Assembly: GCF_900496995.4 (NCBI RefSeq)
Contig: NC_044030.1
Coordinates: 74,504,687 to 74,568,686 of the forward strand
Origin: Aquila chrysaetos chrysaetos
Lineage: Eukaryota; Chordata; Aves; Accipitriformes; Accipitridae
DNA: 64,000 nt
Direction of reading: 5' to 3'
Both the position numbers and the translations under genes were made by a program. Positions 33,640-64,000 of this stretch are shown one piece after another (position 1 is the stretch's first letter; every line of letters starts with the position of its first letter). Under the pieces are notes generated by a model. It made no database searches. It was not told where the DNA came from and saw nothing but the letters and a program-made list of their open reading frames with translations.

Positions 33640-34500
33640 TTCAGTTGGAAGGGACCTACAATGATCATCTAGTCCAACTGCCTGACCACTTCAGGGCTTA
33701 CCAAAAGTTAAAGATTGTTCTTAAGGGTATTGTCGAAATGCCTCTTAAGCAGTGATAGGTTTGGGACATTGACTACCTTTCTAGGAAGCCTGTTCCAGTG
33801 TGTGACCACCCTCTCGGTAAAGAAATGCTTCCTCATGTCCAGTCTAAACCTCCCCTGGCGCAGCTTGAACCATTCCCATGCGTCCTGGCACTGGATGCCA
33901 GGGAGAAGAGCTCAGCACCTCCCTCTCTGCTTCACCTCCTCAGGAAGCTGTAGGGAGCAATGAGGTCACCCCTCAGCCTCCTTTTCTCCAGACTAGATGA
34001 ACCCGAAGTCCTTAGCTGGTCCTTACAGGACATTCCTTCCAGCCCTCTCACCAGCCTTGTTGCCCTCCTCTGGACGCATTCAAGTTCCTTAACATCCTTC
34101 TTAAATTGTGGGGCCCAGAACTGCACACAGCACTCAAGGTGAGGCAGCACCAATGCTGAATACAGCAGGATAATCACCTCTTTTGACCGGCTGGTGATAC
34201 CGTGTTTGATGCACCCCAGGATGGGGTTTGCCCTCTGGGCTGCCAGGGCACACTGCTGACTCGCATCGAGCCTGCTGCCGACCAGCACCCCCAGATCCCT
34301 TTCTGCAGGGCTGGTCTCCAGCCACTCCTCTCCCAGTCTATCCTTGTGCCCAGTGTTACTCCATCATAGGTGCAGAATCTGGCATTTGGACTTGATAAAT
34401 TTAGTTCCCTTGATGATTTCCCAATGCTCCAATCTATCTAGATTTCTCTGTCTTTACAAAGAAATGCATCTCTGCTTCCTAATTTCTTCAGCAGCAGTTC
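33640..34500 (-). mobile_element. CR1 LINE, 5'-truncated, with ORF2 C-terminus
   Basis: The best-preserved CR1 in the window, on the minus strand, with its 3' end at the left beside the AATAG array. The 3' UTR begins ttggaagggacctac and agtccaactgcctgacc. From 34288 down to 33932 a 118-codon frame stays open. It encodes the end of the CR1 ORF2 polyprotein, with [20 protein letters not shown] and the block [15 protein letters not shown], which identify the family. Upstream of this the frame is broken and the reverse-transcriptase core is missing through 5' truncation. The right-hand 100 bp are more diverged and the edge is approximate. Not able to move by itself. Confidence 0.93.
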
Positions 34501-44200: not shown

Positions 44201-44929
44201 TAACCATAATTAAACTATGTGCCAACTGCGAGAGAATGAGATACTCAGTGAAGGCATCCATGAAAGCTATGGGTTTGTTACAAGTCCACAATTAAAAGAG
44301 ATAGGAACATTTCACAGATTTCTTTAGGAGGTAGTCAATTGATCAAACATGGCTCAATGAAGTAGGAGACTGCCACGTTGTACAATAATCCCATCCAAGA
44401 AAAAAGAATTATTTTATCTGTATCAACAGATAAACTCAGCTGACTGTCCCAGCCTTGTACAGCTGAATATGAATTCACAGGGGTTTATAGGGCAAGTGAT
44501 ACAAGGCTGAATTAGATAATATTACATTTAATGTTCATTCTGTATTAAAAAATATATCAAAGGATTTTGTATGTATATTGGACATCATGAGACAAGGATG
44601 ATTCCTGAAGAACAGCTCTCAGTGATGACAGGCATATTCCTTATAGTTATGTAAATACCAAAAATGTGCTTATAATTTCAAAATAAAAATAAACATGTGG
44701 AAACAACTTCTGTAAAACTAGAGTATCTGGTTAATTCATTTGTTCCTTAATTCTTTCAGGCTTTATAGGATTTTCAGTTTTCTTCAGCACGGTTAGAGCT
44801 ATTTAGGTCTTTGCATTGTACCTCACTTAGTAGGAACCCAGTTTTCTCTCTTATACCAACACAGATAATGAGTTGCACTGGCTGCAGGCATGAGCAAGTG
44901 TGGTAGATGGAATACTTCATCACTGGTTA
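41291..44929. other. Non-coding stretch
   Basis: No gene is recognised. Contains a G/A-rich patch (42407-42440) and an AT-rich palindromic patch near 42838-42870. A weak CR1-like trace lies at about 43165-43200 but was not called. Confidence 0.45.
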
Positions 44930-45200
44930 AAGGACAACTTCCACACAAGATCAGAAGTGACCTCACTTCTAGCAGAAGTCCTGCCTGCCACAGGCTTACC
45001 CCAGAAAAGTGTCGGGTCCCTCACGACCGGGCAGTCATCCCTTCCTTCGCTCATGTCAGCTGCCGCTTGGCCACCGTCAGTCACACCCGCGCGATCTCCG
45101 GACTCCCTGTGACTGCCTGGCTCCTGGAGCCGTGCCTGCTTGCCAGTGTGGTGGTCCATGCACACAGAGGCCACACCGACTGAGATTCCATTGTGTGACC
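44930..45200 (+). repeat. Array of ~140-bp units, forward orientation (possible Maverick-type TIR)
   Basis: A GC-rich island whose sequence can be lined up with the arrays at 56830-57110 (same orientation) and with the reverse complements of 45575-45860 and 61290-61730. Landmarks are gatcagaag... followed by gtcctgcctgcc and ttaccccagaaaagt. A second, more diverged unit follows about 140 bp later, with gccgcttggccaccgtcagt and gcgatctccgg. Similarity is moderate. With 45575-45860 it forms an inverted pair about 1 kb across. Open frames here are by-products of GC richness. Confidence 0.5.
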
Positions 45201-45574
45201 ATCCGCTACGTGTTAATACAAAGATCATCAGCATGTCTGAGGGTAAAAAAGACTGGGGATTTCTGTGGCAAATGGCAGTCTCACATATCCCAAGAACAGG
45301 AGTGCAAGAATAGGGTCCCCTAAGTGCAGACTGCTGTGGAGGTCTGGGGAATGGTTACAACGGCACAAGGCCCTGGCTATTAAAGTGATTGTGGTTTTGT
45401 TTGAGAGGTGCAAAGGATCTGTGGAAAAGACTCACAAATGTAATGGCTGGAAATGTGGTATGTGTTAAGAACAGATTTTGAAAATAAACCAGCTTCAGTG
45501 CTTTTTGTCCAGGACCAAAAATCCAGAAAGAGGGAATACATGGGAAAATACTCCATGTATTTTTGATGACATGG
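45201..45574. other. Central segment of the 45-kb inverted pair
   Basis: About 370 bp between the two oppositely oriented arrays. It holds a 67-codon open frame (45265-45468) ending CNGWKCGMC that I do not recognise. A perfect 9-bp hairpin with a 9-base loop lies at 45535-45561 (arms aatacatgg / ccatgtatt). Confidence 0.4.
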
Positions 45575-45860
45575 AGTGTACGCAGAATGTCCTGGACTTG
45601 CTGGCCTCGGCTACTTCTGGGTAAATGAGAAGGCATGGCTTCAGCTGCCAGCCCACCACAGGCCATTCTCAGATAGCATGGGCTACAGCTCTGTCAAAAT
45701 GGTAGCCACCATGGGCTAAGGACATCCTGGTCCTAGGGCTCCTTGCTGTACTTCTGGGGTGAACCTGCTGTGTGACGAGGAAAGGGACAGGACTTTTGTG
45801 GCACATGGGTGACGTGAGAGTGAGTGAGTGGCCATGGCACCTGCCATGTCTTCTCTTGTA
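45575..45860 (-). repeat. Array of ~140-bp units, reverse orientation (possible Maverick-type TIR)
   Basis: Two units are read on the minus strand. Each contains acccagaagta or accccagaagta; the corresponding plus-strand tacttctgg occurrences at 45612 and 45749 are 137 bp apart. Between them lie the plus-strand blocks cttcagctgccagccca and tgtcaaaatggtagccacca. The same blocks occur in the right-hand array at 61390-61560. This supports a shared repeat family. Confidence 0.65.
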
Positions 45861-46090
45861 TGACAAATGTCCTGTAAGTACATTTTGTCTGTCTCTAAAG
45901 AGACATCAAAGGGTTTTGGCTGCTGCTTCTTCCGAGGAGATCATGGTAAGGAAAGTAGGCAGCAGAAGAAAGTATCATTCTCTCTGTAGTTCTATGCATT
46001 CTTATTCCTATTTTATTTCTTACATTCTTTCCTCTACATTTAAAAAACAGAGGCTTGCCCTGTTTGCTTTCCTCCATTTTTTGGTTGTTT

Positions 46091-55080: not shown

Positions 55081-56829
55081 CAGGCTGGCATAATGCACCA
55101 AAAAGGAGCTAGGGGATTATTTTACATTTCTAAGAGACCACTAGATTATTTTTTATTTTTGTCTTTCAAAGAGCCAAGGGCACTCTGCTTTATTTTTATT
55201 GCTGTCTCTTCCTGCCCTGCTCTAGGCTGCTGAATTAAAAATGTGAAAGAATGAAAATTTGAAATAAATGTTAAAAATACGGTTTTCTGAAAGATCTCTG
55301 CTGTTCAGGATTGCACTTAGGTGAGTCCTATCACCTTTGTAAATGGGTTAGATTATCATTATGATCCCTCTAGCTTTACAGTTAATGATATCTGAAAAGA
55401 TCTCTTTCAGCACATTGTTGCACCTGCTATAATTTGCTTTCCTTATCTTGAGAAATTTTCTTATCTCCTGATTTTCAACACCCTGATGACCTGAGGTAAC
55501 CAGAGTTTTTTAGCATGGCAAATCTCTTAGCACATTCATTGTTCCCTCAGCGTGAAAACATTCCATATTAATAGTACTTTTAAATTGTCACATTTCCACT
55601 TCCGGTGAACATGTGATACATAACATTCCCTGTGAGCAAGTATGTACTGGTTCATAAAAACATTCAATAAACTCAGCACTGATAATTTCTCAAAACTTTC
55701 AGTCCTCTAACTGGAGCAAGAACAATCAGGAACAAGCATGACATGAAAATGGAAGTTTTATAATTTAGGACAGAATAATCTGTTTGATGAATAGCACATT
55801 TTGGATGCTTCTGTATGGTGTGACCCTTCTTCCTTGGAGGAGACAAGAGATGGCCTTTGGAAAAGCAAAGATGACTTGTAGCCAAATCTACAACTGCTCA
55901 CAGCTTGATCCAAAAATTGGATTGTTTCTGTTGCTACTTCTTCACCCCTGAACATTAGCTGGGAAATCATGAGAGTTCAAGGAAGCCAATCCCAAGAGAG
56001 GAGGCTTTTCCTTAAAAAGATTGATTTTACTTAATCATGATGCAAAGAGAAAATAAACAATACACTTCAGTTATGATAGGGGAAAGTCATGTGCTGTGGT
56101 GATATGAAAGGTAGGTAGATCATGATTGTGTGAGTAAAGAATAAAAATAGCAAAAATATCTAAAAATACAAAAAATAAAAGGTACATACTTTAAGTTAAG
56201 AGTAAAGATTAGTTTAAAAAACATTAATAGAGAAATTACGTATTAAGCTGAAAGTTTTAACTAAACTACCAGGTTTAACTAAACTACTAAACTACGAGGT
56301 TCAGTGACAAGGTCTGGGCATCTGAAGGTAGGATTCTCGTATGGCCCCTTTGTTTTAAGTAATAACATAAAGTATCTTTATCTATATAAGTTAATTTGTT
56401 ATGATCATACCATTTTGTCTTAATATAAGGAAGATAAAAATACTTTGTTGGCTATTTGGCAGTCAAGATATTTATTCTAATCTTCTCTCTCCAGGGAAAG
56501 CCCTATCTCATGTGTCTTATATCATCACTATACCCTAATCATCATATATTTGCTTAGACTAAGTAATGCCAAATTAACCAAACCAGCCTGTAATAATTAC
56601 TAATATATGTTAAAATACTACTCATGTGTAAATCCTCTCTCCAGTGATTATTATTTACTGTTTCCTAGATTATTTTATGTCAAATACCTCACTTCATTCC
56701 TTGTTTGAGTGGTAGCAACATAGATGTCTATTGTGATTCAGAAAGATAAGGAGAGCGTGAAGAAAGGCTACAACCAAGGGAAATGTCTTTAGTACCAGTT
56801 AAAGAAGAACTTTGATACAACATGGTGCA
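55081..56829. other. Non-coding stretch
   Basis: AT-rich DNA with no recognised gene or repeat. A small internal duplication of taactaaactac-type sequence lies near 56260-56295. Confidence 0.45.
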
Positions 56830-57110
56830 GGCCCCATTCCCCCGACTTTTGCTGGAAGACCTGCCCCTCAAAAGTCTGATGACCATAGTCCCAAGAAGCC
56901 CTGCCCCCTTTTCCAGCCATATGACCCACTTCACCCAGAAGTGTATCAGATCCTTCAGGCCCAGGAAGTCCTCCCTTTGTCCGTAAGATTCACCATTTTG
57001 ACATAGTCATGGCCATACCCCATGTGATCTCAGAATCCCCTGTAATTGCTGACAGCTGAAACCCTGCCTTTTTCTTTACCCCAGAAGTATGTCAAAGGCC
57101 CTCATATGTA
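56830..57110 (+). repeat. Array of ~145-bp units, left candidate terminal inverted repeat
   Basis: GC-rich sequence in forward orientation. Its blocks reappear in reverse complement at 61290-61730: aagccctgccccc..ttttcc followed by catatgac; cattttgacatagtcatggc; catgtgatctcagaatcccc; gacagctgaaaccctgcctt; ttaccccagaagtatgtc; and ggccctcatatg at the inner edge. The cagaag landmark occurs at 56937 and 57083, so the unit is about 146 bp. The inner edge runs into a TA-rich tract, as it also does on the right side. Polintons have terminal inverted repeats that often contain tandem sub-repeats, so this is a candidate left end of the element. Confidence 0.6.
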
Positions 57111-57245
57111 TATATGTATGGGTTTGCATAAATACATACATATGTATGTATACATATACATACACATATATATGTGTGTGTGTATAAAGATACATTTGAG
57201 AGTGTACAAAGCATATAAATGTATATTCATACATAGTTACACTTC
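57095..57245. repeat. TA/CATA-rich simple repeat
   Basis: Impure tract of tatg/tata/catac units, including tatatgtgtgtgtgt. It sits at the inner edge of the left array. A similar TA-rich stretch (61195-61290) lies at the inner edge of the right array. Confidence 0.85.
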
Positions 57246-58082
57246 TTAATAAATATGTAAGGACTGTATTTATAAAGTGTATAAAAATGTTTAATAAGAG
57301 ATAATGAAATTAAGTCAAAATTGAATGTAAATAGAAAGAAAATTAAATAAAAGGAATGTACAGTTGAAGGGTGTGGGAGTGTGTCAGAGAGAGTGGGGGC
57401 CCATGAAAACATTTGAATATGCACTGGGCAAAGGCCTGTGAAGCTAACCAAGAGACTGTCACCCAGCCCCAGCTCATCCAAAGAACAGACCAGACCTGTG
57501 AATCTGACATACAGTATTACTGGGGCAGCCCTTCAACTTTGACCTGTGCTAGAAAATAGAGGTAACATTGCTTACTAAACTAGAAAGCCAGAACAAAAAA
57601 GCAGCTCCATAGGAACATGTGTGTAGGGACACCTACACCCCAAAGGGTTTTCCTAAAATGTGTATTGGAAAGAAGACTGGGCTGGGATTTTGGAAACAAA
57701 AGTTTGTTGGAGTGGGTGGGAGGCAACTTCTGCCTACAACTCAGTGTGCTCACAACTACTTGTAATACCATGACAGGGATTGGGCTGCATGTGTTCCCTT
57801 ATCCTTATGTTGACGTGGATTTTATAGCACTTTTTGAAAACATAATCCTGGCTGATTACATAGAAGACAGAATTATTCTGTGAACTGTTTTTGTTCCTGC
57901 CTAGGATGCAGGATTCAAAAAAAGGACAACGCTTAAAAAAGAAAAACAGCTTTGAAAGAAAAGCAACAGTGACAGTGAGAGACAGGTCACCATCACTCCA
58001 ATGATCAATTAATAAATAAAGTTTCATTGAACATGACTTAAATTGATTGTCTAATGTTTGTTTTCCTATGTGTATGTAGTAG
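57246..58082. other. Segment between left array and integrase relic
   Basis: About 840 bp with no recognised Maverick gene. An 88-codon plus-strand open frame (57617-57883) and two minus-strand frames lack known motifs. This would be the place for a 5' flank or for remains of a deleted gene. Confidence 0.4.
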
Positions 58083-59090
58083 CAGCATGTTGCTAGATTG
58101 CAGTATCTGTTGAAAGATATTTACTATGCTCCTGGAGAAGTGGGAAGCCTTGGGGATGTAAATCCCCTTTGTGAAACAGCCAGGAGTCCTGTTGATCTGA
58201 ACAGAAACCAGGTGGCCACATGGCTTGTAAACCAAAACGCTTACAACATACATAAGACAGTGAGAGCACTTTAGAAGTAGCAGGTATTTGTGGTATATTC
58301 TAAACACAGTAACAGTGTTTGGCTTATTTTAATGATGATGAACGTATGATCTAAAAGTGCCTGGACTGTGTGTCTAAAAGGCAGAAGGGGTTCTGAAATA
58401 GCTGAGGCTTTTTTGCTGCCTCAGTAGTTACAGACCAAGCAGGGAATGCATGTTTTTAAACCAGCCTTTAGACAAACTGTTAAAGTAGAATAATTTTCAC
58501 TACTTTGTTACTAATAATGAAGTAGAGGCCTCTGTCACAGATTGCTTTAACAGGATGCTAGAAACCAAGACGTGGGGATGTTTTACAGCATGCGGTTACC
58601 ATTTGCTACATCAATGTGTTACTGGTGTTTATAATAAAGAGCTGTAACCACAGCTCCCACAGTACTGTCATACTCAGACCTGTGGATGTGAAACCTCCAA
58701 GCTCTGCAAGGATTTGGAAAACCATGTCTGGAAATTGTGGTAAAATTAGAGTAAATATTCCTCCACTCAGATACGAAGATCATGTGAGGATGTCTACAAC
58801 AAAAGAAAGATTTGACAACAGTTATGAGCAGATGTTCACAGACAGTAGCTGAAACTGTGAGAAAGGGTCAGATACCCATATACTGCTTAATAGACAACAG
58901 TCATCAAGCTGTCAAGGGGACGTTTTATTCCGATGAACTTTAAGAAGTGAACACTGTTGAGGACAGAATCTGCAAAATTGAAAAGCTTCTAGGAGTAAAA
59001 AGGCAAGGAAGGAAGAAACAGCTGTTTGTAAAGTGGTGTTGCTGGCCCTAGAAATTTAACAGCTGGATAAAAGCCTTCTCAAGTCCATGA
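58083..59090 (+). pseudogene. Maverick/Polinton integrase, disrupted
   Basis: A retroviral-type DDE integrase relic covering almost the whole gene (about 1.0 kb) in four pieces. Piece 1 (58083-58274) holds the N-terminal block with LKDIYYAPGEVGSLG and NAYNIHKTVRAL, ending at a stop. A poorly matching tract follows, with TDQ at 58430-58438 as a possible second catalytic Asp. Piece 2 (58492-58647) holds NNEVEASVTDCFNRMLETKT, the block carrying the catalytic Glu in the family (ASVVERFNRTLK-type). Here the Glu position reads Asp. Piece 3 (about 58649-58852) includes PVDVKP, RIWKTM and EDHVRMSTTKERFDNSYEQ, the post-core region. Piece 4 (58914-59090) is the chromodomain-like end with GTFYSDEL, ICKIEKLLG and LFVKW, interrupted by stops at 58941 and 59049. 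At least three frame changes occur. In the intact family the enzyme inserts the element into host DNA. Confidence 0.88.
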
Positions 59091-59865
59091 TGTTTAGCAG
59101 TTGGAGCCAGAGTGGGAGAAAAAGAAGGATAGCAAACTGCGGTTTTTACATCATGCTCCCCAACAATGCTTGCACCAGAATTTCCCCACAAAACACCAGT
59201 TTGAACTTTACCAAACAGCTATTCAAAGCCCCTGGGAGCTGTCAGGCCAGTGGGAGGTGGGCTTTGCAGAAATACAATACCCAGACAGCTGGAATAATAT
59301 TAATAGTGCTGCTGGGTAAGACATGGCATTATTCTTTGTGGCAAGTCCATTATCCATCCATATGCATATTGCTGGAATATATAAACACTTCTTAGTTCCA
59401 ACAACAGACCTTTAACTGGTCTGTTAACCAGCCACAGGCCTGGTCTTCAGTCCTGCAATTAGGAAAACAAAGCTTAAACCAGATGAAAATTCATATACTT
59501 TTCGTGCAGCTGGGAAGCTAGTGATTTTTTGGGAAGCTTCTCTTGTGGTTGCCAGTGGCAGTTTCCCTTTTCAGCTGACATGCCTGGAAGGTTTATCTCG
59601 ATCTACCTCTACACAAAAACTTGTTGAGCACCAGCAGGTTGGAGATTTATTGGTCCCATTATCATGCTGTGTTCTGGCAAATGGTAATAGCAGTGAGATC
59701 ATTACAGTGACACAGTACAAACTGCATTATGTGCCAGTGAACCAACCTCCTATCGATACAGGCAGCACTGAAATAAATATAAATGAAAACAACCACATCT
59801 TATTTCACAGTGGAAAGGAGATTGTGAAATCGCATCTGCTGCCCTGGAAGGTTGTGGTATTTTAA
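59087..59865 (+). pseudogene. Maverick/Polinton penton-like minor capsid protein, disrupted
   Basis: Remnant of the second capsid gene. The first block (about 59141-59225, frame starting with the ATGATG at 59087) reads FYIMLPNNACTR and PQNTSLNFTKQL. After a frameshift the next block (about 59236-59305) reads ELSGQWEVGFAEIQYPDSW, the signature GxWEVGLxEIxYPxSW of these proteins. The last open frame (59521-59865, 114 codons) contains QQVGDLLVPLSC, LHYVPVNQPPIDTGSTEINI and FHSGKEIVKSHL, matching the conserved C-terminal half (HYxPV...EINIxxxxGxxxxFxxGKxIVxLHF). The tract between is poorly conserved. The ATG overlaps the integrase stop. In the family this is a jelly-roll protein of the virion vertex. 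The penton assignment rests on recalled family knowledge; the Maverick origin is firmer than the precise virion role. Confidence 0.82.
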
Positions 59866-59961
59866 GAAAGGACACCATCACGTAGCAAAGAATAAGTAGT
59901 AAAGGGAGTAGTAAACGAATTAAAAGGACCCCTCCTTGTACATGAATTATTAAAGAGCCCA

Positions 59962-60200
59962 GGTGGAATAGAAGGTATATTCTACAGCCTCTTTTCAAAA
60001 GCTCTATCATTTTTCTAAAGGAGTTTGGAAATTTTTAAGCCACACGTTAAAGCATGGCTGAAAACATGGCCAAAGATGTGATCGGATGTGTATCCCAGGA
60101 TGTTGTGGCCAAGTTGCAAACATTGGCAAAGCAGGAGGTCTTGGGGGTTGTTGAGAGACACGTCACAGCCCTGAAGGGACGGCCTTCCTCAGACCCTTAA
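59962..60200 (+). pseudogene. Small Maverick virion-type protein, remnant
   Basis: Two pieces in different frames. 59962-60018 reads GGIEGIFYSLFSKALSFF before a stop. 60054-60200 (48 codons, from ATG) reads MAENMAKDVIGCVSQDVVAK and continues to a stop at 60198. Maverick/adintovirus genomes often have, between penton and major capsid genes, a short glycine-rich and hydrophobic then basic protein with a GxGxxFxxLFR-type start. Position and the first block fit, but similarity is short, so this is tentative. Confidence 0.4.
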
Positions 60201-60377
60201 AAGGAAATGAATGGGTAATGCCAGGCTGCATTCCAGCCACAAAAAGTAAAAGAATAACAAACCCTACTGCACAATGGAAAAGAAACAAGAAATCCCAAGG
60301 AAGAAGGGCCATTCTTCCACTAGAAAAGGAGATCTATTTTAACAAGTCTGATTTTTCTTCATGGCTGCTCAGAATAA

Positions 60378-60630
60378 CATACCAAACACAAACTGGACTC
60401 ATTTGAAGTGGCCCCAATGCAGACAAGCATCAAGAAGATCTTGTTCATTGAGATGCCATTACTTTCAGCTGTAACACAGTTTGCCCCCCTGGACTTGAAT
60501 GGGAAAGATTGTGATGGTCTGAACAACTGTGCTGGATCTCTGCTGCAAAATCGCTGAAGAAAAGAGTGAGTCTGATGAATTACTTGTTGGCGCCTACTTT
60601 CAGCCACCTGGATGTTACATTGAGAGGCAT
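60378..60630 (+). pseudogene. Maverick/Polinton major-capsid-like gene, N-terminal remnant
   Basis: The first block (60378-60557) reads KHKLDSFEVAPMQTSIKKI and then MPLLSAVTQFAPLDLNG, followed by a stop. This resembles the conserved start of the hexon/major-capsid-like protein found in Mavericks (KSELDLFxxPPTQTSI, then a PLSAL and PIEF region, then LNNT). The second block, in another frame (60587-60630), reads LAPTFSHLDVTLRG, matching the LxSxFSQVDVxLxG segment that follows. After that I cannot follow the gene, so roughly the last three quarters are missing or decayed. The protein family normally forms the capsid facets. Assignment to major capsid is from recalled family knowledge and should be tested by profile search. 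Confidence 0.72.
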
Positions 60631-60639
60631 CCTCGTTCT

Positions 60640-61165
60640 GAGTTTGTAAGCCACAGTCTGCTATGTAAGGTGTAGGTGACCTGGAAGTTGCCTTCAGGAG
60701 TTTATCTTCTGTCCTAACAGGAGACATGGTTACTGCTGCATCAGGTTCAGGAGAGGTTCAGGAGGCCAATTGGTAAGTGTAATCCCCTGCCCTTGTCATG
60801 CTGCACAATTTGGTTTTGTTTCAGAAATCCCAACCCAATTATCATTTATCCGATGGATGTGGTCTTTTGGGGAAAACCCACTGGGAACTTTTCTTAGTGC
60901 CCCTACACATGTTCCTGTAAAGTTGAATTTTTGTTCTAGTTTTCCATTTTCGTAGGCAATGTTACCTGTATCTTGTAGCACAGCACACAGTCCAAAGACT
61001 GCCCAAGTAATACTGTATGGTGATCTGGTTAGTTTTTCAGCAGCCTTGTTAACTGGTGGTCCCATAACTGTATTTTCTTCTTATATATTTTTTCCTATTC
61101 ATATATAAACCTTGTTAATTTCAGTACCTCTTTATAAACTTTTATAGGTAAACTTTTGGAAATAT
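60640..61165. other. Distal part of Maverick interval, unassigned
   Basis: Expected location of the rest of the major capsid gene, but no conserved block was followed with confidence. On the minus strand a 89-codon frame (60796-61065) contains TGNIAYENGKLEQKFNFTG and looks mildly protein-like. I do not recognise it. Confidence 0.35.
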
Positions 61166-61290
61166 AAGTTCATTGAGAGAGAGAGAGAGGGAGATAAAGT
61201 GTATGTATGCATTTATACATATTTATATACTCCTTTCTATATATATTTCTAGAAATATTTACAAGGCTATACATCACATGTATCAAGAAT
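61166..61290. repeat. GA run and TA-rich tract
   Basis: gagagagagagaggg at about 61174-61191, followed by TA-rich sequence with tatatata-type stretches. It mirrors the TA-rich tract at the inner edge of the left array. Confidence 0.8.
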
Positions 61291-61730
61291 ATATGGGGGC
61301 CCTTGAGAAGCTTCCAGGTGACCGGGAAGGCAGGATTTCAGCTGCCAAATGATCACAAGGTGCACTGAGATCACAGGGTTTATACCATTAACAAAATGGC
61401 AGCTGTGACAAAATGGCAGCCGCATGCTGGGCAGAGGGAGGACATTCTGCTCTCGCTATACTTCTGGGTTGACCAAGGCGTGGCCTCATCTGTCAGCCAA
61501 TCCCAGGAAGTGGTGATATCACATGCGTTACAGCGGTGTCAAAATGGTGGCCGCACATGGGCACAGCGATGTAGTCTGGGGAGGCCTGACCTAGCTGGGG
61601 AGATAAGCCAGTCACATGACCGGAAAACGGGGGGGCTTCTGGGGCAGAGGGGTCATGTGACCACAAGGGGCTGGACTTGCAGCAGGCGCGGGGCACTTGC
61701 CCTGTCTTGGCTTGTGTGAAATTGTCCCGA
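61290..61730 (-). repeat. Array of ~150-bp units, right candidate terminal inverted repeat
   Basis: Reverse-complement counterpart of 56830-57110. On the plus strand the landmarks cttccaggtgacc (61311), cttctgggttgacc (61461) and cttctggggcag (61636) are 150 and 175 bp apart. Between them are aaaatggcagc-type blocks and gatcacaaggtg / gatatcacatgc. The outer portion aligns with the left array over ggtcatgtgaccacaagggg and the gaagccc / ttttcc blocks read in reverse. Outside about 61730 and left of about 56830 similarity fades, which marks the approximate outer limits of the pair. Confidence 0.6.
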
Positions 61731-63362: not shown

Positions 63363-63566
63363 GAGAAACTTTTATGCATTAAATTATATAGGTTTCACAT
63401 TCGTTGAAACAGGAACCATATCTTTTGTATTTGTACAGCACACAGCAAAGCAACCCAAGGCTAGAGATTGTAGCGTTTATAGAAACTGTATAGTAGTAAT
63501 GGTATCTAATCATTGTGTTGGAACATAACTGTAAAACTGTGAGTCACTGTGCTATCAGTCATGCAT
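63363..63566. other. Short non-coding interval
   Basis: About 200 bp between the CR1 end and the start of the ERV-derived repeat. No feature is seen. Confidence 0.5.
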
Positions 63567-64000
63567 TGGGTTGACCCTGGCTGGCTGCCAGGTGCCCACC
63601 AAAGGCATTCTATCAATCCCCTCCTCAGCTGGACAGGGGAGAGAAAATACAACAAAAGGCTCATGGGTCGAGATGAGGACAGGGAGATCACTCAGCAGTT
63701 ACTGTCACAGGGAAAACCAACTCAGCTTGGGGAAGTTAGTTTAGGCTCAACTTAACTCCCAGTTTCTCTGTTTTCTCCCCCCTGAGCGGTGCAGGGGGAT
63801 GGGGAACGGGGGTTGTGGCCACTTCATCATGCATTGTCTCTGATGCTCCCTCCTCCTCACACTCTTCCCCTGCTCCAGCGTGGGGTCCCTCCCACGGGAG
63901 ACAGTCCTCCATGAACTTCTCCAACCTGGGTCCTTCCCACAGGCTGCAGTTCTTCACGAACTGCTCCAGTGTGGGTCCCTTCCATGGGGTCATGGCCTCC
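63567..64000 (-). mobile_element. Avian ERV-derived LTR/internal repeat, cut by window end
   Basis: The left edge reads tgggttgaccctggctggctgccaggtgcc, the familiar reverse complement of an avian LTR 3' end, followed by caccaaaggcattctatcaa and ggtcgagat. Further right it passes into a C-rich tract (cccctgagcggtgcaggggg) and then a 45-bp minisatellite. I recognise this arrangement from many bird genomes as an ERV-derived repeat. Orientation minus. It continues past the window, so its other end, target duplication and completeness cannot be judged. The junction at about 63735-63750 looks like an internal deletion relative to the form I remember. Confidence 0.75.
63871..64000. repeat. 45-bp minisatellite within the ERV-derived repeat
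   Basis: Units begin at 63871 (tgctccagcgtgggg), 63916 (cttctccaacctggg) and 63961 (ctgctccagtgtggg), exactly 45 bp apart. The array runs off the window. Because 45 is divisible by three, a minus-strand frame (63736-63993) stays open and shows a 15-residue repeat (LEQFVKNCSLWEGP / LEKFMEDCLPWEGP). Whether this is ever translated is unknown. Confidence 0.88.

Follow-up and report, generated by a model that had tools for sequence, protein, structure and literature searches.

Vertebrate Mavericks (Polintons) are built on a recurrent plan. According to the available part of the survey PMC8097293, one of their modules carries the polymerase and lies on the strand opposite to the second, which comprises integrase, minor capsid, PW, major capsid and protease, both modules pointing to the centre; intact copies measure 12.7–24.6 kb (near 17 kb) and have terminal inverted repeats of 46–1447 bp. 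In birds, only degraded Mavericks are reported, as far as the available text of PMC8097293 and PMC9683012 goes. According to PMC8097293, such copies are found in several orders and form ortholog groups in palaeognaths and penguins; the accessible portion of PMC4992247 describes Polinton remnants on chromosomes 2 and Z of the chicken that are conserved in the turkey. Integrations on human chromosomes 7 and 8 have also been published (PMC9683012), and the same source, in its available part, calls the reason why Mavericks died out in birds a mystery.

The locus considered here lies in a stretch of 64,000 nucleotides of Aquila chrysaetos chrysaetos (the window; C37:74504687-74568686), searched within the 1.23-Gb genome. 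The plus-strand segment 58083–60672 and its flanking inverted repeats very probably constitute a decayed Maverick/Polinton relic. Including these repeats, the element extends over ~56.8–61.7 kb of the window, with ~5 kb between the outer repeat ends, and the parts kept are, from 5′ to 3′, the left repeat, an integrase with chromodomain, a minor capsid, a probable PW, the start of a major capsid and the right repeat. The preliminary description reported plus-strand fragments in the order integrase, chromodomain, penton-like and major-capsid-like protein, and they are found in that place and order; the span that it gave, 58083–60630, stands for the coding part but overlooks the flanking inverted repeats. 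The several frame changes and stops that it mentioned are also seen. All gene remnants between 58083 and 60672 (plus strand) are broken by them, the stop-free pieces being short and the frame switching several times. The features are as follows, with E values for matches in the whole genome and at related loci, among them L050 (C29:4.155 Mb), L051 (C18:0.33 Mb), L052 (C29:158 kb) and L054 (C29:4.43 Mb).

56811..57701, plus strand: left terminal inverted repeat; firm over 56933-57701, the outer 56811-56936 weak (score 31.6).
58083..58271, plus strand: integrase N-terminal piece, 63 aa; 17 genome matches including self, 16 non-self, best of these E 8.5e-15; L052 1.1e-19, L051 5.5e-8.
58489..58849, plus strand: integrase pieces in two frames (58489-58644, 58562-58849); L052 E 6.6e-12 and 2.1e-25, L051 5.9e-8 and 0.17.
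58788..58940, plus strand: integrase C-terminal piece; L052 E 5.4e-12, L051 2.2e-7.
58944..59048, plus strand: chromodomain piece; L052 E 3.3e-10, L050 5.2e-8, L051 1.5e-6.
59098..59862, plus strand: minor capsid (penton-like) remnant, a single frame with three stops; pieces 59098-59316 and 59428-59862 (145 aa), the latter with 21 genome matches including self, 20 non-self, best of these E 3.9e-23; L050 1.7e-28.
59896..60015, plus strand: probable PW-like remnant; weak matches directly after the minor capsid in L050 (E 0.005), L053 (0.022) and L054 (0.002).
60051..60197, plus strand: piece adjoining the PW-like one; without placed match in the other loci, assignment unconfirmed.
60378..60672, plus strand: major capsid N-terminal remnant (60378-60554, then 60515-60646 and 60523-60672); nine genome matches including self, the eight others at E 4.4e-6, 0.003 and, for six, above 0.05.
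60785..61728, minus strand: right terminal inverted repeat; firm over 60814-61469, alignments to two other loci stopping at 61728 and 61726.

The locus shares with the Mavericks of PMC8097293, as the available part of that survey presents them, the order integrase, minor capsid, PW, major capsid as far as kept here, as well as long terminal inverted repeats, whose size is inside the published range; its degraded state is that of the bird copies. It differs from them by its length of ~5 kb, outside the range of intact Mavericks, by the missing polymerase module and most of the major capsid, and by end motifs that are unrecognisable. The chicken and turkey remnants, in the accessible portion of PMC4992247, are likewise degraded Polinton fragments in birds, one of them on Z; there, however, the Z remnant kept the polymerase, whereas the eagle locus keeps integrase and capsid pieces. 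With the Mavericks of human chromosomes 7 and 8 (PMC9683012, available part) the relic has in common that it is old, gene-poor and inactive, but those were dated by orthology across placentals and this one by repeat divergence, and different genes are kept. What is new is a well-supported further example, degraded avian Mavericks being already known.

The names minor capsid and major capsid are assumed here from gene order and the preliminary description. Neither Pfam (rve and capsid families included) nor PHROGs gives a match over cut-off for any of the ten window pieces scanned, and a PDB sequence search returned nothing pertinent. The sole pertinent Pfam hint is Chromo on 58944-59048, with 13.5 bits and E 0.068, under the cut-off of 25.1. 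Structure prediction for the 145-aa minor-capsid piece gives a mean pLDDT of 29.9. Open-frame length was rejected as evidence, since 20 out of 200 6-kb Markov sequences contain a frame as long as the longest one here (145 aa). The Maverick/Polinton identity proposed at the outset is upheld by gene order, copies elsewhere in the genome and repeats. A lack of significant profile matches, which the preliminary description named as a ground for dropping its reading, is literally what Pfam and PHROGs show for the window pieces, so that the case rests on the copies elsewhere in the same genome.

Chromodomain integrases occur in LTR retrotransposons, and Chromo is the only Pfam hint, two points that would suit an LTR retrotransposon with a chromodomain integrase and chance open frames downstream of it. 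This is nevertheless highly improbable: the flanking repeats are inverted, with no same-strand match between 52.0–58.3 kb and 60.6–64.0 kb, and the downstream pieces recur with the integrase, in order, at other loci. Pfam finds no reverse transcriptase among the ten window pieces scanned.

The Maverick reading gains from the arrangement of the genome matches. In counts that took matches up to E 10 and included second-stretch integrase and overlapping minor-capsid matches, 9 of the 20 non-self minor-capsid matches (four loci) lie ≤10.5 kb downstream of an integrase match, for 0.0014 expected, and half of the non-self major-capsid matches (4/8) lie ≤2.5 kb downstream of a minor-capsid match on the same strand, for 0.00016 expected. 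Most of the latter are weak individually, two of the eight being below E 0.01. Grouping of matches within 15 kb, leaving out self matches, the left repeat of the locus, two second-stretch integrase matches and two overlapping minor-capsid matches, yields 33 clusters outside the window locus; ten of them carry more than one kind of Maverick piece and, as matches up to E 10 were again taken, some single-match clusters are due to chance.

Individual loci reproduce parts of the order found in the window. In L051 and L052, integrase pieces are followed by the chromodomain and the first minor-capsid piece, colinear with the window and with E values down to 2e-25 in L052; in L051 the colinearity runs on into the 145-aa minor-capsid piece (E 2.8e-15). 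The 3′ part is found in L054, where minor capsid (E 7.7e-23), PW piece (0.002) and the first and second major-capsid pieces (2.7e-10 and 0.005) come in order, while in L050 the chromodomain and the minor capsid are accompanied by a weak PW match. Downstream of the minor capsid, over 2.8 kb in L050 and 2.9 kb in L053, no major-capsid match is found in order. Altogether, 21 of 65 piece-locus pairs reach E 1e-5 or better in five loci (L050–L054) that were chosen for carrying a piece match, some pieces overlapping, as compared with 0 of 260 reaching E 1e-3 in the shuffled-piece control (best 0.002). Pfam detects no rve in the better kept integrase pieces of L051 and L052 and nothing pertinent on the pieces of L050–L054. 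Relatives in the same genome that co-locate far above chance and are colinear support the Maverick reading.

Viral-contig searches with the element pieces as queries gave no relative. Two viral contigs reached E 4e-6, a value relative to the candidates of that search only. In L002 the matching frame, of 89 aa, faces one of 562 aa on the other strand, and the match is taken as chance; a frame equal in length and score is present in L001. L002, with its 562-aa frame, is presumably a phage. Five further viral contigs, with only 12 residues in common with the window, were read as phage and discarded.

A genome search for DNA_pol_B_2 yields 12 matches, six of them over the Pfam cut-off, including one that passes only together with its neighbours. 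At C29:2.90 and C29:3.20 Mb, which are apparent duplicates, matches over cut-off (E 0.001) are separated from integrase relatives by ~5 kb and share the strand of the integrase, unlike in most published Mavericks. The sole convergent arrangement of the published type is that of C37:57.02 Mb, where integrase, minor-capsid and major-capsid matches on the minus strand (57016-57021 kb) face a plus-strand polymerase match (E 3.2) within 4.2 kb. At C27:11155-11181 kb, four DNA_pol_B_2 matches are spread over 6 kb, with the best E value of the genome (1.4e-6), and a weak major-capsid match is 20 kb off.

None of the 12 matches falls at the window locus, where no protein-primed DNA polymerase B is thus found, and a Pfam scan of ten open reading frames at and beyond the 3′ side of the locus (eight from L019-L020, two from the window) for the lost module gave nothing pertinent. 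Since the polymerase has been lost from the locus, the element is classified by descent as a deleted Maverick relic and not as a complete Maverick. The major-capsid remnant stops ~0.1 kb before the right repeat, which, with the size of ~5 kb, points to an internal deletion. An integrase-carrying element would have got into the germline long ago and inserted at this locus; a deletion, before or after insertion, took the remainder of the major capsid gene and everything up to the right repeat, polymerase module included.

The two end repeats pair with each other. Alignment of 56933-57701 with 61469-60814 gives 461 identical positions in 599 ungapped columns, with 227 gap columns and a score of 152.4, as compared with at most 60.4 among 60 random pairs; a weak outer extension (score 31.6) takes the pairing to 56811 and 61721. 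The ends given are approximate. The end zones show no convincing pair of AGT or AG end motifs, and the search for a 6-bp target duplication in them gives five shared 6-mers for 3.7 expected. The flanking inverted repeat is non-coding, and a minus-strand frame in the right repeat was rejected as coding (mismatches of 0.22, 0.24 and 0.26 by codon position over seven loci, two of them duplicates).

The inner part of the repeat has few copies genome-wide (eight matches including self and the left copy), a rarity that speaks against the idea that the fragments are Maverick but are flanked by copies of an unrelated dispersed repeat. So does the position of three of the six other matches (two of them apparent duplicates), which have the expected orientation and precede integrase relatives by 0.55–1.2 kb; C14 adds a weak fourth, with an integrase match of E 0.001 nearby. 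The idea draws on the remaining two, at C27:5.9 Mb and C4:3.87 Mb, which have no integrase match in 1.5 kb on either side, and on a related gene-free pair in the window, and is on balance quite unlikely. A decayed Maverick/Polinton is supported as by far the best reading by the module order, the recurrence in order, the DNA_pol_B_2 matches near integrase relatives and the long inverted repeats. The gene-free pair is the following.

44835..45932, no strand assigned: gene-free pair with similarity to the Maverick end repeats, membership uncertain, 11 kb upstream of the fossil.

Within it, the segment 45594-45913 matches the right repeat at 75.1% identity (293 columns), and 45536-45932 matches the left repeat at 76.8% (340 columns). 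The left stretch, 44995-45137, resembles the repeats less (blastn E 3.6e-7; alignment score 51.8). Aligned with each other, the two stretches score 36.1, inside the random-pair range. A single further repeat match, of 115 bp in L021 (E 0.001), turns up in the surrounding 294 kb, which include 2.2 kb of N. The pair could be a derivative consisting of repeats alone; alternatively, it could point to a repeat that is not Maverick-specific. It is conceivable, though rather doubtful, that deleted Mavericks such as the one at this locus, or bare repeats such as the pair, moved or multiplied as non-autonomous elements by means of the proteins of intact relatives in an ancestor of this bird, leaving a small family on Z and elsewhere. 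Among 12 of 78 literature titles on such elements, none on non-autonomous or internally deleted Polintons in birds was found, which does not prove their absence, and the words nonautonomous and non-autonomous are not used in the available part of PMC8097293.

The divergence of the repeat pair (K2P 0.277, bootstrap 0.231–0.327) suggests, at assumed rates, an insertion tens of millions of years old. If the repeats were identical at insertion, a rate of 1.9e-9 per site and year gives 61–86 My, and rates of 1.2–3.0e-9 give 39–136 My. These ages are to be taken as orders of magnitude, in view of the assumed rates, the many gaps in the alignment and the bias of local alignment towards similar columns.

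Three of the five DM-domain matches in the genome, whose size fits a bird, are on contig C37 (88.2 Mb), clustered in 107 kb at 58.28–58.38 Mb. Because this cluster is presumably DMRT1-3-2, C37 looks like the bird Z chromosome. The cluster of Maverick matches at C37:57016-57021 kb is ~1.3 Mb from the DM cluster, and may correspond to the Polinton remnant of chicken Z. Among the matches listed (at least 150 rve matches; 2634 candidates), many rve and many Maverick matches are on contigs C27–C31, which might be W-linked.

Elsewhere in the window, a 143-aa open frame on the minus strand (33935-34363) is what we take to be the end of a CR1 LINE polyprotein. At the right end, a dispersed repeat (63560-64000) has matches in L020, L047, L049, L050 and L053, and is presumably retroviral. 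Rfam and tRNA scans of the window gave no match.

As no intact frame is present, the relic most likely has no protein function today. Retention by the host for regulatory or other use finds a precedent in the conserved Polinton fragments that PMC9004415, in its accessible part, reports in mammals, but is hardly credible for a relic with so many stops and frame changes.

The locus is a genuine fossil Maverick, ordinary in kind, and tells more than the preliminary description suggested, as its two end repeats can still be recognised and the genome retains several relatives. It adds to the published picture of bird Mavericks and does not alter it. A copy with both end repeats, together with ten other multi-piece loci in one genome, provides a datable point, and presence or absence of the relic in other birds would bound the last activity of these elements.
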